DNA from: Alphaproteobacteria bacterium
GTDB taxonomy: Bacteria > Pseudomonadota > Alphaproteobacteria > UBA8366 > Aestuariispiraceae
Assembly (NCBI GenBank): GCA_030065235.1
Contig: JASJDC010000002.1
Coordinates: 62,001-126,000 of the forward strand
Direction of reading: 5' to 3'
DNA length: 64,000 nt
Positions within the stretch are counted from its first letter, which is position 1. Every line of letters starts with the position of its first letter. This document shows, piece by piece, positions 594 to 7,801 of this stretch. The translations under genes and the position numbers were made by a program. The notes beneath the pieces were generated by a model that searched no databases, was not told where the DNA came from, and saw only the letters and a list, made by a program, of their open reading frames with translations.

Positions 594-694
594 CGTCGCG
601 AGAGTGCGACGGCGGGCGACTCGCCGAGAACGGATTGACCCCGTTCTGAACTGTTCACGGATCATCAATGAGATGACCGAACTGGGAGATGACG

Positions 695-1069
695 ATGTTC
701 AGGAAGCTGATTGTTGGTTTCGCCGCTGTGATCGCGATTGCCGGTTGCGCTGGGACGCGTCCGCCGATCGACCCGTCTGTGTCGGCTGCGGATGTCGGCG
801 GCGCTGAGAAAAGCGGCCGAATCAATTGCCTGGACCAGGGCGTCGGCGTCCTCGCCGGCCTTGGGTTTGATCCCGCCGATGTCATCAGCATTGACGGCAT
901 CGTGCAGACCTACGAGTCCCGCGGCGACCGAAAGCCGAAAGGCTATGACTTATGGTTCCGGTTTCGCGACAGGCCCGGCGCGCTCGTCGTGAATCATAAC
1001 CTGATTTGCGACCCGTTCAGCTACTACACACGCGGCGAGTTGACGGTCCCGAACCCCCCTGCGGCGTGA
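695..1069 (+). CDS. small lipoprotein, copy 2 of a tandem pair
   Basis: About 124 residues. The N-terminus is MFRKLIVG followed by a hydrophobic run and IAGC, a good lipobox. The body repeats the blocks of the preceding gene: IDPSVSA, NCLDQG, DLWFRFRDR and CDPFSYYTRG. The ATG at 695 is preferred over the one at 689 because GGGAG at 684-688 touches the earlier ATG but sits six bases from the later one. The copies diverge most between the NCLDQG and DLWFRFRDR blocks, where copy 2 has a charged segment (ESRGDRKPKG). No known domain is recognised. It is probably an outer-membrane or periplasmic-face lipoprotein. Confidence 0.75.
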   Translation: MFRKLIVGFAAVIAIAGCAGTRPPIDPSVSAADVGGAEKSGRINCLDQGVGVLAGLGFDPADVISIDGIVQTYESRGDRKPKGYDLWFRFRDRPGALVVNHNLICDPFSYYTRGELTVPNPPAA

Positions 1070-1115: not shown

Positions 1116-1820
1116 TTAGGATGCGCTTAAGAGCAGGTCTTTGGCCTGGTTGATCTTTGCGGCCAGATAATCCGACCCGCCGGCGTCCGGGTGCGCGTGT
1201 TTCATCAGCCGCCGATGGGCGTCACGGATCGCAGCGGCGTCGGCCCCCTCTTCGAGCCCCAGGATTTGCAGCGCTTCTTCGCGGGTCATCGCGCCGCCGC
1301 CGTCGCTTTTCGGCCGGTCATCGCCCCGGTCGGCCGCGTCCCGCCAATCGGGATGCTCGCGGTCAAGGAAGGTCTCCAGCAGCGGAACCGATTTCGGATC
1401 GCGCCCTTCCGCTTCAGCGAGCAGGTTGAGCAGATCGGCCAGCGGCAGGCTTGAAAGAGGCAGGCCTTTGAAGCGGCCGACCAGGACCTCGCCCTCCATC
1501 CGCCCGGTATCGTGATCCAGCGTCATGGCCAGCATCTCGGTGCGGATGTCCGACCGGGCGCCGGGGCTCGGCCCGCGCATGCTGTTGATGATCGTCTTGA
1601 AATTATTGAAGCGCGAGATGAAGGGCAGGGCGCCGGCCAGCACCATCCAGATCAGCCCCCAACGCCCGGTCGCCACCACGAACAGGCCGATTAAGAGGGC
1701 GATCGTCAGAATCACCCATTTCGCCGACCCAAGGATCGCCTTCGGATTGGCGCTCGCGGCCCATTGCAGGATCGCGTAGAGCAGGATCAGAAATCCAAAC
1801 CCGAACAGAAGATAGGTCAT
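1116..1820 (-). CDS. membrane-anchored J-domain protein, Tim14/Pam18-like (TimB type)
   Basis: 234 residues. Two hydrophobic segments lie at about residues 1-20 and 33-62. A cytoplasmic linker follows, then a C-terminal J domain over roughly the last 55 residues with the HPD motif. The J domain reads [10 protein letters not shown], then [16 protein letters not shown] and [11 protein letters not shown]. This is very close to mitochondrial Tim14/Pam18 (DNAJC19), which also puts a short J domain after a membrane anchor. From memory, a protein of this kind in Caulobacter was called TimB and discussed as an ancestor of the import-motor J protein. Its role is expected to be recruiting DnaK at the inner membrane. 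It lies 34 bases downstream of a VWA gene on the same strand, so the two are probably one operon. Confidence 0.85.
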
Positions 1821-1854
1821 GGAAGAAACGAGGGCCTTTTTCTAAACGCGACTC

Positions 1855-2592
1855 TTATCGGCGGGCCATCTGGTCGGTCAATTGAAGCACCTTGCCGCCG
1901 GTTTTCTCGCCATAGGCCAACATGGCGCGTCGCCCGCCCGCCGCATAGACCGCGACAGCCGAAAGCAACTCCTTCAATTGCCGCGCGCTGCCGGCGTCGA
2001 ACGGGCAGTAGGCGCCGCCGGAAAGCCTTGCGATCTCCTTGAAGGCGCGCGCCGCCAGCGGGTCGCGGCCTTCATGGAACATGAAGGCCGGCACGCCCAC
2101 CAGCCCCATCTCGCCGGCGGTATGGCAGACCTTGTCGATGTCTTCTTCGAAACAGTCGCCGACAAAGACCAGGGCGCCGATCTTGTGTTTCTCGGCCTCG
2201 GCCTTGGCGTGGTTCAGGATGCGGCCGATCTGGGTCCGGCCCGCGCGGCAGCGCACGCTGGTCATCAGCCGCGCCAGCGCCATCGCATCCGCCGCCCATT
2301 TCGAGGCTTTGCACTCGCCGAAACCGCGATAGAAGATCAGTTGGATATCAAGCCCGCCCAGGGCCGCCGTGGCCGAGAACATTTCGCCCTGAATCTGGCA
2401 GGCCTGATCCCACATCGGCTCGCGGCTGGCGGTGGCGTCCATGCCGAAAATCAGGCGCCCGCGTGCGTCTGTGTTCGCGCGCTTTGCAGGCGCGCGCTTG
2501 ACCTGTTCCAGGAAGGCGGCGACGTCGGCGTCGCTGGCCGATCGGACAGGGGCGCTGTCGCCGGTCTTGGCGGGTTCTTTCGATCGGCTCAT
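1855..2592 (-). CDS. VWA (von Willebrand factor A) domain protein
   Basis: 245 residues. There is no signal peptide, so it is probably cytoplasmic. After a polar N-terminal tail of about 45 residues the chain enters a VWA-type Rossmann fold. A MIDAS-like metal site is seen as D52-A-T54-A-S56 in FGMDATAS, followed by WDQACQIQGEMF. A later strand, GALVFVGDCFEED, fits the position of the second acidic loop. This looks like the alphaproteobacterial VWA family that usually carries no other domain. The J-domain gene follows 34 bases downstream, suggesting a shared job in chaperone or complex assembly, but that is inference. Confidence 0.8.
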   Translation of the reverse strand: MSRSKEPAKTGDSAPVRSASDADVAAFLEQVKRAPAKRANTDARGRLIFGMDATASREPMWDQACQIQGEMFSATAALGGLDIQLIFYRGFGECKASKWAADAMALARLMTSVRCRAGRTQIGRILNHAKAEAEKHKIGALVFVGDCFEEDIDKVCHTAGEMGLVGVPAFMFHEGRDPLAARAFKEIARLSGGAYCPFDAGSARQLKELLSAVAVYAAGGRRAMLAYGEKTGGKVLQLTDQMARR

Positions 2593-2863: not shown

Positions 2864-3616
2864 ATGACCTTTTCACTCGATGCAGCATCGCGCGCCGCGC
2901 CTCGCAAGGAGTTCCGGGCGGAGCGCAGCATAACCCCAGGCCGCCGCGCGCCCCGGGCGGCCGAGCCCGACGCGTTGGATGGTTTGGACGCGACCAGTCA
3001 GATGCTGCTGGTCCGTATCGAAGATCTGCATCAGAAAATCGATTCGATGGCCGAAAACCGAGGTCAGATCGGATCCGAGGCGATCGGCGAGGACGATACG
3101 GTGCGGCTCGAGATCGCCCGGCTGGTCAAGGAGATCGGCAGGACCAAGGCCGAATTGGCCTCGCTGCGCCATCCGATGGCGGATGAAGAGAACGACAAGA
3201 TCTCGAACGCGACAAATGAGTTGGACGCGATTGTCGAAGCGACGGAGCACGCAACTCACGCCATCCTGCGGAATGGCGAGGAGATCGCCGATCTGCTCGC
3301 TCGTTTCCGCGCGGATTCGGAGATCGATGACGAACACCGCATCGTGCTGGATCAGATCGAGGCGAAACTGATCGGCATCATGGAGTCCTGCAACTTCCAA
3401 GACATCACGGGTCAGCGCATCACGAAAGTCGTCAATACGATGAAATTCATCGAAGAGCGGGTCAAAGCGATGATCGAGGTCTGGGGCGTCGACTCCTTCG
3501 CCCATCTGCCGATCCCGGAAGACGATTTCGTCGACGAGGACGCCAAACTGCTGGCGGGTCCGCAGTTGGAGGATCAAGGGCTGACCCAGGACGATATCGA
3601 CGCTATGTTCGATTGA
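2864..3616 (+). CDS. cheZ: CheZ-family protein phosphatase (chemotaxis)
   Basis: 250 residues. It is predicted to dephosphorylate CheY-P and end the flagellar switching signal. The catalytic block is ESCNFQDITGQRITKV at about residues 174-189; D180 and Q184 match E. coli CheZ Asp143 and Gln147. Flanking helices (about 80-205) form the long four-helix bundle expected for the dimer. The last residues, LTQDDIDAMFD, resemble the CheZ tail helix that binds CheY. The first 40 residues are basic and look disordered. The gene stands alone: neighbours are not chemotaxis genes, so its partners lie elsewhere. An AT-rich upstream region holds a possible CtrA box. Confidence 0.9.
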   Translation: MTFSLDAASRAAPRKEFRAERSITPGRRAPRAAEPDALDGLDATSQMLLVRIEDLHQKIDSMAENRGQIGSEAIGEDDTVRLEIARLVKEIGRTKAELASLRHPMADEENDKISNATNELDAIVEATEHATHAILRNGEEIADLLARFRADSEIDDEHRIVLDQIEAKLIGIMESCNFQDITGQRITKVVNTMKFIEERVKAMIEVWGVDSFAHLPIPEDDFVDEDAKLLAGPQLEDQGLTQDDIDAMFD

Positions 3617-5459: not shown

Positions 5460-6290
5460 CTAGACTTCAGCGCCCTTTAGACCCAGCGCGGTGAGGAGGT
5501 CGCGTAACTCTTGGCGCGCCGCGACATGGGATAAGTTCAGTTTGACCCCGGCTTCCGCGCCGCGCAAATCCAACAGCGTCAGCCCATCGAGGAACAACTC
5601 GCGGAAAATCACGCGTTCCGAAAAGCCCGGGGCGATTCGAAACCGGATACGGGCCGAGAGCTCGTCCAGCGCCCGATCCATGGCTCGGCGATTCTTCGAT
5701 TCCAACTGGCTCATTCGGTTTCGGATCACGACCCAGTCGAAGGTTCGGTTCGAGCCCGATTTCCGCGCTTTTGCGATTTTCTGTTTGAAAACGGTCTCGG
5801 CGTAGAGGCTCGGTCGGCGCACCTTGTACGTCGTCGGATCGACTACCGCCAGCACATCCAAATCGATGAAACTGTCATTGATCGGCGTGATTAGCGTATC
5901 CGCCTCGGCCAGGGCCAATTTTCCCAGATGCGAGTCGCGTCCCGGCGTGTCGATGATCACGACATCCTGATCGGCCAGGCCCGATTGCGCCTGGTCGAAG
6001 GCGTCGCTTTCCTCCTGTTCCATGGCGACGCGAGTCCCCGCGAGGCTTTCGGGAACCGCGCGATGGGCCGGCATGGTCAGGTCGGCGCCGGTCCGAGCCG
6101 CAAAATCGCGCCGGTTCTGGACATAGCGGCTGAGCGTGCCCTGGCGCGCGTCGAGATCGATCACGCCGACCTTGAACCCGTTCGCCATGAAGCCGGCCGC
6201 GAGATGCATGGCGGTGGTCGATTTACCGGTCCCGCCCTTTTCGTTGCCGATGGTGATGATGTGCGGCGCGCGCGGCGCTTGCTCGCTCAT
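5460..6290 (-). CDS. mipZ: MipZ, ParA/MinD-family division-site regulator
   Basis: 276 residues. MipZ is an ATPase that forms a gradient from pole-bound ParB and inhibits FtsZ assembly, so placing the division plane in alphaproteobacteria lacking Min. Seen here: a deviant Walker A NEKGGTGKST at about residues 16-25, the switch I segment VIDLDARQGTLSRY, and Walker B VIIDTPGRDSHL. The insertion AHRAVPESL and the stretch KNRRAMDRALDELSARIRFR match the MipZ branch rather than ParA. It is a single-gene unit here, with a lipoprotein gene divergent 64 bases away. Confidence 0.93.
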   Translation of the reverse strand: MSEQAPRAPHIITIGNEKGGTGKSTTAMHLAAGFMANGFKVGVIDLDARQGTLSRYVQNRRDFAARTGADLTMPAHRAVPESLAGTRVAMEQEESDAFDQAQSGLADQDVVIIDTPGRDSHLGKLALAEADTLITPINDSFIDLDVLAVVDPTTYKVRRPSLYAETVFKQKIAKARKSGSNRTFDWVVIRNRMSQLESKNRRAMDRALDELSARIRFRIAPGFSERVIFRELFLDGLTLLDLRGAEAGVKLNLSHVAARQELRDLLTALGLKGAEV

Positions 6291-7072: not shown

Positions 7073-7801
7073 ATGAGCATCTGGGGAAAGATTCTTGGCG
7101 GCGCGGCGGGGTTCGCCATGGGCGGTCCGCTGGGCGCGTTGATCGGCGCGGTGGGCGGGCATTTCGTCGACAAGATGGCGGGCGAGTCCGAAGGCGGCCG
7201 GGACGCCCAGAAATCCGTCGGCTTCACCATCGCGCTGATCGTGCTTGGCGCGAAAATGGCCAAGGCCGACGGACGCGTAACGCCGGACGAGATCTCCGCT
7301 TTCAAAGAGGTCTTCAAGATTCCGCCGGAAGAAATGAAGAATGTCGCCCGGATCTTCGATCAGGCGCGGCGCGATTCCTCCGGCTATGAGGTCTATGCAA
7401 GGCAGGTCGCGGGCATGTTCCGCAACAACCCGACGGTCCTGGAAGAACTGCTCTGGTGTCTGGCCTATATCGCCAAAGCCGACGGCACGATTCATCCGGG
7501 CGAGATGCAATATTTGCGCGGCGTATCCGCGATCTTCGGGTTCGATCAGGCGACCTTCGAGCGGGTTACGGCGATCCCGCTGTCCGGCGACCCCGAAGAC
7601 CCGTATGCGGTGATCGGCGTCAAGAAAGAGGACAGCGACGAGGCGATCAAAGCGGCGCATCGCAAGCTGGTCGTCGAGAATCACCCGGATAAGCTCGTCG
7701 CTCAGGGGCTGCCGGAGGAATTCATCGAGGTCGCCAACAAGAAACTGGCGGCGATCAACGCGGCTTACGACAAGATAAAGCGCGAACGGGGGCTCTCCTG
7801 A
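7073..7801 (+). CDS. djlA: DjlA-like co-chaperone (TerB-like + J domain)
   Basis: 242 residues. The N-terminus is Gly-rich and hydrophobic (GGAAGFAMGGPLGALIGAVGGHFV) and may contact the membrane. A TerB/DjlA all-helical domain with AKMAKADGRVTPDEI and IAKADGTIHPGEM occupies about residues 50-165; these are the two metal-binding-like acidic repeats of that domain. The C-terminal J domain (about 175-240) has HPDKL. DjlA proteins recruit DnaK at the inner membrane and modulate envelope stress in enterobacteria. Its stop overlaps the likely CTG start of the exporter gene, so translation may be coupled. Confidence 0.9.
   Translation: MSIWGKILGGAAGFAMGGPLGALIGAVGGHFVDKMAGESEGGRDAQKSVGFTIALIVLGAKMAKADGRVTPDEISAFKEVFKIPPEEMKNVARIFDQARRDSSGYEVYARQVAGMFRNNPTVLEELLWCLAYIAKADGTIHPGEMQYLRGVSAIFGFDQATFERVTAIPLSGDPEDPYAVIGVKKEDSDEAIKAAHRKLVVENHPDKLVAQGLPEEFIEVANKKLAAINAAYDKIKRERGLS

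Follow-up and report, generated by a model that had tools for sequence, protein, structure and literature searches.

A VWA protein gene beside the gene of a Tim14-like membrane J protein in Alphaproteobacteria, and its frequent co-absence with the middle domain of that J protein

The J protein of the mitochondrial import motor, Tim14 (also called Pam18), consists of an anchor plus a J domain, and its human homologues are DNAJC19 and DNAJC15. Work from 2009 on bacterial relatives of the import motor reportedly identified TimB of Caulobacter crescentus as an inner-membrane J protein related to Tim14. To our knowledge, the role of these bacterial relatives is an open question. Here we analyze a two-gene locus in a stretch of 64,000 nucleotides (the window) from an Aestuariispiraceae genome of the Alphaproteobacteria (assembly GCA_030065235.1, contig JASJDC010000002.1, positions 62,001 to 126,000 of the forward strand), in which the gene of a von Willebrand factor A (VWA) protein, termed V, is followed by that of a Tim14/TimB-kind membrane J protein, termed J. 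We found that the two genes adjoin each other in most V-bearing genomes, and that J, where it occurs without V, has in most cases no middle domain. Among the titles listed by searches of the open-access papers in PubMed Central, none concerned a VWA partner of Tim14 or TimB, which is not proof of its absence from print, and a text search of PMC11349236 returned no mention of TimB.

A sequence-only reading of this DNA had noted a VWA protein in an operon with a Tim14/Pam18-like J protein at 1116-2592. Both open reading frames (ORFs) are present there on the minus strand, 34 bases apart, for proteins of 245 and 234 amino acids (aa). Their parts are listed below by window position, A1 and A2 being 23-row alignments of V and J, respectively, and MIDAS the metal ion-dependent adhesion site of VWA proteins.

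1855-2592, minus strand: V, VWA protein of 245 aa, from the ORF; VWA fold at about residues 43-224
2425-2439, minus strand: MIDAS motif 1 of V, D52-x-T54-x-S56, from alignment A1 and 179 V proteins
2233-2235, minus strand: T120 (GxTQI), the MIDAS Thr of V, in a loop leading into a helix, from alignment and model
2155-2157, minus strand: D146 (GDxxEE), the MIDAS Asp of V, following strand 140-145, from alignment and model
1821-1854, minus strand: intergenic gap of 34 bases from the V stop to the J start, from the ORF coordinates
1116-1820, minus strand: J, long-form Tim14/TimB-kind membrane J protein of 234 aa, from the ORF and from sequence and fold comparison
1578-1817, minus strand: N-terminal membrane region of J, with three predicted helices at residues 2-23, 26-51 and 55-81, from AlphaFold and hydrophobicity
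1323-1565, minus strand: middle domain of J, residues 86-166, from AlphaFold; proposed V-linked domain
1119-1292, minus strand: Tim14-like J domain, residues 177-234, from sequence and fold match to 2guz_A
1185-1193, minus strand: HPD motif of the J domain, H210-P211-D212, from alignment A2

The J domain resembles that of mitochondrial Tim14/Pam18 in sequence, in fold and in its GGS-A-K-IN-AKD signature. The motifs named in the sequence-only reading (IRDAHRR, HPD-GGS and AAKIN-AKDLL) are all found in J, the HPD motif is invariant in 23/23 rows of A2, and the GGS...AKIN signature of the Tim14 kind is readable in window J. Yeast Tim14 (2guz_A) was the best sequence match in the PDB with 42.2 bits, followed by a DnaJ with 15.8, and a profile scored Tim14 at 65.3 and the next entry at 34.1. 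Searched against the window genome, the yeast Tim14 J domain found J first (43.8 bits, 51% identity), and its sole other match at E<=10 was a DjlA-like gene with 14.8 bits. DjlA and other membrane J proteins are like J in joining a J domain to a presumed membrane anchor, and the DjlA-like J domain fell on a long branch outside the Tim14-like tree group. By fold, 2guz_A was the only Foldseek match to the J domain at E<=0.001 (E 5.1e-4, root mean square deviation (rmsd) 0.8, 46% identity over 58 columns; next match 2.2e-2), with a VIA Z of 10.3, the next being 7.9. A tree of J domains (142 rows, 60 columns) held a branch that parts the bacterial J rows and yeast Tim14 from DnaJ, CbpA-like, J172 and DjlA-like J domains, with a Shimodaira-Hasegawa-like approximate likelihood ratio test (SH-aLRT) value of 95.7. 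The placement with Tim14, apart from the genome's own J domains, that the earlier reading had called for is thus borne out, resolution within the group being weak. An approximately unbiased (AU) test did not reject yeast Tim14 outside the bacterial rows (p 0.438). Yeast Tim14 itself fell in an 8-row group of weak support and long branches (SH-aLRT 93), which was not used for descent; the bacterial rows in that group are V-lacking in 7/7 cases and without the middle domain in 6/7.

Outside its J domain, window J departs from Tim14/Pam18, having three predicted membrane helices, a middle domain and a VWA partner gene. The helices and the middle domain, which is well folded in the AlphaFold model, are additions to the first reading. 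An N-terminal membrane anchor before the J domain is predicted both from the helices and from 19-residue hydrophobic windows, which begin at residues 1-6 and 26-44, and can be likened to that of Pam18, for which PMC12953747 describes an inner-membrane anchor and a J domain exposed inside. The middle domain comprises three strands and three helices, with a predicted local distance difference test (pLDDT) score of 93-97 in each ten-residue block of residues 91-160. Fold searches run on the complete J model yielded matches to the J domain only, and hardly probed the middle domain. Window J also lacks the layout of type I/II DnaJ, with its G/F region, zinc finger and C-terminal substrate domains: its J domain is C-terminal, and matches of DnaJ models span the J domain only. 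Because the middle domain breaks the minimal anchor and J-domain architecture, window J is classed as a long-form bacterial relative of Tim14, not as Tim14 itself. The mitochondrial layout of anchor plus J domain instead resembles a short bacterial form of J found in V-lacking genomes.

By its predicted fold and its preserved metal-site residues, V belongs to the VWA proteins. The AlphaFold model (pLDDT 83.8, predicted template modelling score (pTM) 0.78) has the strand and helix order of the Rossmann-like VWA fold, and VIA-align matched it to the VWA domain of a TFIIH subunit (8ebu_E; Z 17.5, rmsd 2.5, 168 residues), a bacterial VWA protein (4fx5, Z 15.9), BatB (15.5) and a proteasome chain (8amz_W, 15.1), with Z 14.6-17.5 across the 50 entries listed. 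This likeness emerged from fold comparison alone, since a sequence search of V against solved structures returned no VWA chain. Window V gave no VWA hit in Pfam or NCBIfam at E<=1 and did not reach the Pfam VWA gathering score, while Pfam VWA_2 matched 10/23 aligned family members at E<=0.1 (best 3.8e-4). As the predicted fold matches VWA, we read the missing Pfam hit as a shortfall of the sequence model. Small matches to an acyl transferase and to a LuxD-type thioesterase (1tht, E 0.017) were discounted as fortuitous, given the predicted VWA fold. MIDAS motif 1 is invariant in 23/23 rows of A1, and among 179 near-full distinct V proteins checked for MIDAS patterns, D-x-[TS]-x-S followed by R was present in all 179. 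The MIDAS Thr is conserved in at least 90% of the 23 rows (T-Q pattern in 174/179, the other five still having T-Q), and the MIDAS Asp is invariant in 23/23 (GD pattern in 176/179, the remaining three still having GD). In the model, D52-x-T54-x-S56, T120 and D146 lie at the positions expected of a MIDAS. V has no membrane-type hydrophobic stretch, its largest 19-residue mean being 1.06.

The V and J genes are neighbours well beyond this genome, as the sequence-only reading had asked. In one draw of 289 Alphaproteobacteria genomes (the class sample, with both genes called at E<=1e-5), 107 genomes carried V and 161 carried J, and none of the 107 was without J. In 100 of the 107 genomes (102/109 V loci) J directly follows V, on its 3' side and in the same orientation, where a rough random-position estimate predicts ~0.08 adjacent genomes. 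The seven misses are G093, G271, G105, G202, G281, G201 and G122. V and J are truly separate in the first five, which belong to two families (f59 and f71), and in G201 each lies near a contig end. In G091 and G278, V occurs at two loci, both of them flanked by a J. In a same-order sample of 39 genomes, the window genome included (both genes called at E<=0.001), 30 carried V and 38 carried J. We also kept the best 80 loci of at least 510 V relatives among 588 pattern matches as a named-genome sample, and in 80/80 J followed V on its 3' side in the same orientation; in two of these loci the contig ends within J. In one of these loci (L103, 4870-6815), ~1.9 kb separate V and J and hold ORFs for an EamA-type transporter and a LysR-type regulator. 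Loci L109, L130 and L160, which also carry the pair, come from Azospirillum. The pair is also found outside the class: nine of the 80 loci are Gammaproteobacteria by title or class, including the isolates Thiorhodococcus minor DSM 11518 and Halochromatium glycolicum DSM 11080, and in a phylum draw of 397 genomes four of the 38 with V lie outside Alphaproteobacteria, with J adjoining V in 4/4. Of 30 phylum-draw loci, J was adjacent in 28, ~1.15 kb away in G652 and not at the locus in G093. The gap between the genes is short, with a median of 9 bases in 163 pairs and at most 30 bases in 126, 22 of which abut or overlap, by 8 bases at most.

A few loci hold an additional J gene. A second J-family gene stands beside the V-J pair in G020 (L224, 2005-2829 and 2845-4104) and G032 (L021), and in G018 two J matches lie on broken contigs, each next to a V fragment. 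All three genomes belong to family f4.

V is also coupled to the middle domain of J. Of the 161 J-bearing genomes in the class sample, 106/107 with V and 11/54 without it have this domain (Fisher p 1.4e-27, kinship ignored), its state being taken from the match range in V-bearing genomes and from sequence in all 54 V-lacking ones. One of the 11 is G186, with J at a contig edge, which makes its V status uncertain. In the other 43 V-lacking genomes J has no middle domain, and is an ORF of 85-190 aa in 40 and part of a longer open frame in three. A profile recheck for V in 62 V-lacking genomes gave 0 matches, the same profile having matched the 38 phylum-draw genomes. Because the J-domain tree is mostly unresolved, we counted changes by taxonomic family instead, restricting the comparison to families varying in V and setting aside beforehand f49 (the J of G186 ends at a contig edge) and f4 (G026 and G029 are incomplete genomes). 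Across the resulting 11 families, the middle domain was absent along with V in seven (f1, f12, f31, f76, f99, f111 and f112), showed no difference in four and the opposite in none (within-family sign test p 0.016, 7 vs 0). The five genomes of f59 and f71 in which V and J are unlinked retain both V and the middle domain, and the coupling therefore tracks whether the genome has V, not whether V is linked to J.

Gene order around the missing V was compared in eight family pairs. In the five pairs other than f31, f111 and f112, the slot of V, between J and the upstream neighbour of V, was measured and found closed, leaving 16 bases in G006, 35 in G133, 48 in G241, 41 in G283 and 64 in G257, which marks these as the same loci minus V. 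In G133, a DUF3179 gene that lies upstream of V in G294 is followed by 35 bases, a short J and then the same three sugar-nucleotide genes. In G283, a molybdopterin oxidoreductase gene that precedes V in G110 lies 41 bases from a short J. MipZ adjoins J in G241 and G006, just as it immediately precedes V in G046 and G002. G257 (f35) has no V in the slot but retains the middle domain, which is likely an early stage. Where the middle domain is kept without V, it scored 13.7-85.4 bits (median 57.2; 15 rows, including L217, L219 and L220), and with V 75.8-117.4 bits (median 98.4; 63 rows outside the profile training set). L215, L222 and L223, whose V status is uncertain, were excluded from this scoring; they scored 84.4, 73.3 and 63.9. 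These sequence scores are partial evidence that the middle domain may erode without V.

Our combined findings lead us to propose that V is a dedicated partner of J, acting via the middle domain to bring DnaK to clients at the inner membrane, a reading to which we give an even chance of being right. J would sit in the inner membrane by its N-terminal helices, with its J domain facing the cytosol. The window genome has one full-length Hsp70, a second match being a short 39.9-bit stretch, and J, if active, thus presumably uses DnaK: from its HPD motif and this Hsp70 content, the J domain would activate the cell's single full-length DnaK. Soluble V would work with J through the middle domain, most simply by docking there, and its metal site may bind clients or membrane complexes at an acidic surface. 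The module could in this way direct DnaK to chosen clients, by analogy with the VWA adaptors of MoxR AAA+ ATPases. As for function, we would put assembly or quality control of membrane complexes first for testing, by analogy with Pam18, which PMC12953747 places at the TIM23 complex and respiratory supercomplexes, with Pam16 as its regulatory partner. The sequence-only reading had suggested a novel chaperone assembly of a VWA and a J protein at the membrane. Its genetic side holds, with the two genes adjacent and the middle domain tracking V, and its physical side, a VWA-J-DnaK assembly at the membrane, stands as a proposal.

The likeness to MoxR systems lies in the pairing of a chaperone module with a MIDAS-bearing VWA protein, as in NorQ/NorD, RavA/ViaA and CbbQ/CbbO. 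PMC9976466 reports that NorD MIDAS mutants co-purified with NorQ, yet gave no active client enzyme. Unlike in those pairs, the partner of V is an Hsp70 J protein and not an AAA+ ring. As no MoxR gene flanks V in the window, where its neighbours are J and a CheZ-like gene, V-J is not a MoxR-VWA pair. By eye, MoxR was not recognized among the neighbour families present in at least 10/80 named loci either.

Several observations weigh against a dedicated partnership through the middle domain. Four families (f2, f35, f62 and f69) have V-lacking members that retain the middle domain, and 4/15 scored middle domains of V-lacking genomes (G257 and three of five f2 rows) fall inside the range found with V. 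The low-scoring ones belong to distant lineages, and since their J domains also score lower, lineage distance accounts for part of the difference. In f2 it is the J signature that decays and not the middle domain: V-lacking L216-L220 (G014, G019, G024, G033 and G035) have kept HPD and lost the GGS...AAKIN signature. The sole class-draw exception to the rule that V goes with the middle domain is G122, which has V yet a short J; its V (L257, 2080-2685) is divergent (38% identity) and retains the MIDAS residues, and the genome has 10% contamination. The J-domain tree is weakly resolved, with 81/139 inner branches open, and an independent-pairs test on it had 2 usable pairs on starred branches and gave no significance. 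The direction of change, loss rather than gain, is assumed. Finally, it may be a third partner that V and the middle domain both serve.

In this last case, V and the middle domain would not touch and would both bind a third component, such as an inner-membrane complex or a lipid patch, and be of no further use once it is gone. The same co-absence data fit such a shared component, and ViaA with RavA reportedly works via the inner membrane (PMC9489729). Yet no third gene is as tightly linked to the pair, although one may be encoded elsewhere, and we regard this explanation as somewhat unlikely. Within 8 kb and on the same strand in the 80 named loci, with reverse-frame ORFs left out, the commonest neighbours after V (80 loci) and J (78) were a GalU-type nucleotidyltransferase (51), PGM/PMM (48), the UDP-glucose dehydrogenase family (47) and MipZ (37). 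The GalU-type label was read from sequence and the other families were assigned by Pfam from one example each.

These neighbours form a wider block, mipZ-V-J-galU-ugd-pgm, that is conserved in many loci, as would be expected if V and J were two unrelated housekeeping genes kept side by side by genomic inertia. However, none of the four common neighbours was found in 21/80 loci, 11 of which span at least 16 kb, and all of them have V-J, so the pair outlives its neighbourhood; it also persists in Gammaproteobacteria. Nor would inertia account for the absence of V tracking a domain inside J, a coupling seen as well in the five genomes with unlinked genes. We thus consider inertia very unlikely.

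The other genes recognized around V and J in the window are as follows.

5460-6290, minus strand: MipZ (Pfam E 4.8e-100), 2.9 kb from V
2864-3616, plus strand: CheZ-like gene, transcribed away from V (Pfam CheZ E 1.6e-10)
7073-7801, plus strand: DjlA-like protein with TerB and J domains, giving two J genes within ~6 kb

The presence of MipZ, upstream in its 37 loci and close to V in the window, together with G006, which keeps mipZ-J without V, would fit a V-J module that acts with MipZ in division or cell polarity. In 43/80 loci, some of them short contigs, the examined flank yielded no MipZ relative, nor did the examined flanks of the nine Gammaproteobacteria records, and such a role appears very improbable.

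Other genes were noted near the pair or elsewhere in the genome. ClpS (19/80 loci; for example L101, 15717-16040, plus strand) and the ClpA-like Clp_N (15/80; for example L091, 15991-16677, plus strand) occur ~7 kb downstream of V-J, at the end of the flank. Convergent with J in the window are two tandem related small ORFs (207-593 and 689-1069, plus strand; 128 and 126 aa), which look lipoprotein-like by eye and had no Pfam hit at E<=1e-5. A Tim44-family gene is found elsewhere in the window genome, and a J-domain protein (226 aa frame, L172, G000:C2 ~467000) is encoded just upstream of an AAA+ gene that is CobS-like by eye.

A different role for V would be that of a brake or switch on J, covering the J domain or keeping it from DnaK in the manner of Pam16, a dedicated partner that, according to PMC12953747, blocks Pam18 stimulation of mtHsp70 in vitro. 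The J domain is retained in most V-lacking genomes examined, and J can therefore act without V. However, V has a predicted VWA fold and not a J-like one, and the preservation of its metal site in 179/179 proteins suggests that the site is used, which a simple cap would not need. A mere brake would also not predict the decay of the J signature in V-lacking genomes, seen in f2 and in G200 (L214, 1989-2660), where the HPD motif of J is lost. On this evidence a brake is unlikely.

Returning to V as a partner that works with J through its middle domain, we tentatively extend this proposal to mitochondria, in a reading that we hold to be doubtful: V-J would be an Hsp70 client-delivery machine at the bacterial inner membrane, with V as a VWA adaptor docked on a domain of J dedicated to it, and the mitochondrial J protein would derive from a stripped form that had lost V and the docking domain. 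In that reading, such loss seems recurrent in living alphaproteobacteria. The bacterial J protein now has a candidate docking domain and a neighbouring partner gene, and strains lacking both exist in nature, so that its role becomes directly testable. If the proposal is true, the principle of VWA adaptors would extend from AAA+ ATPases to the Hsp70 system, and the coupling of V to the middle domain points to a working pair that is absent from mitochondria.

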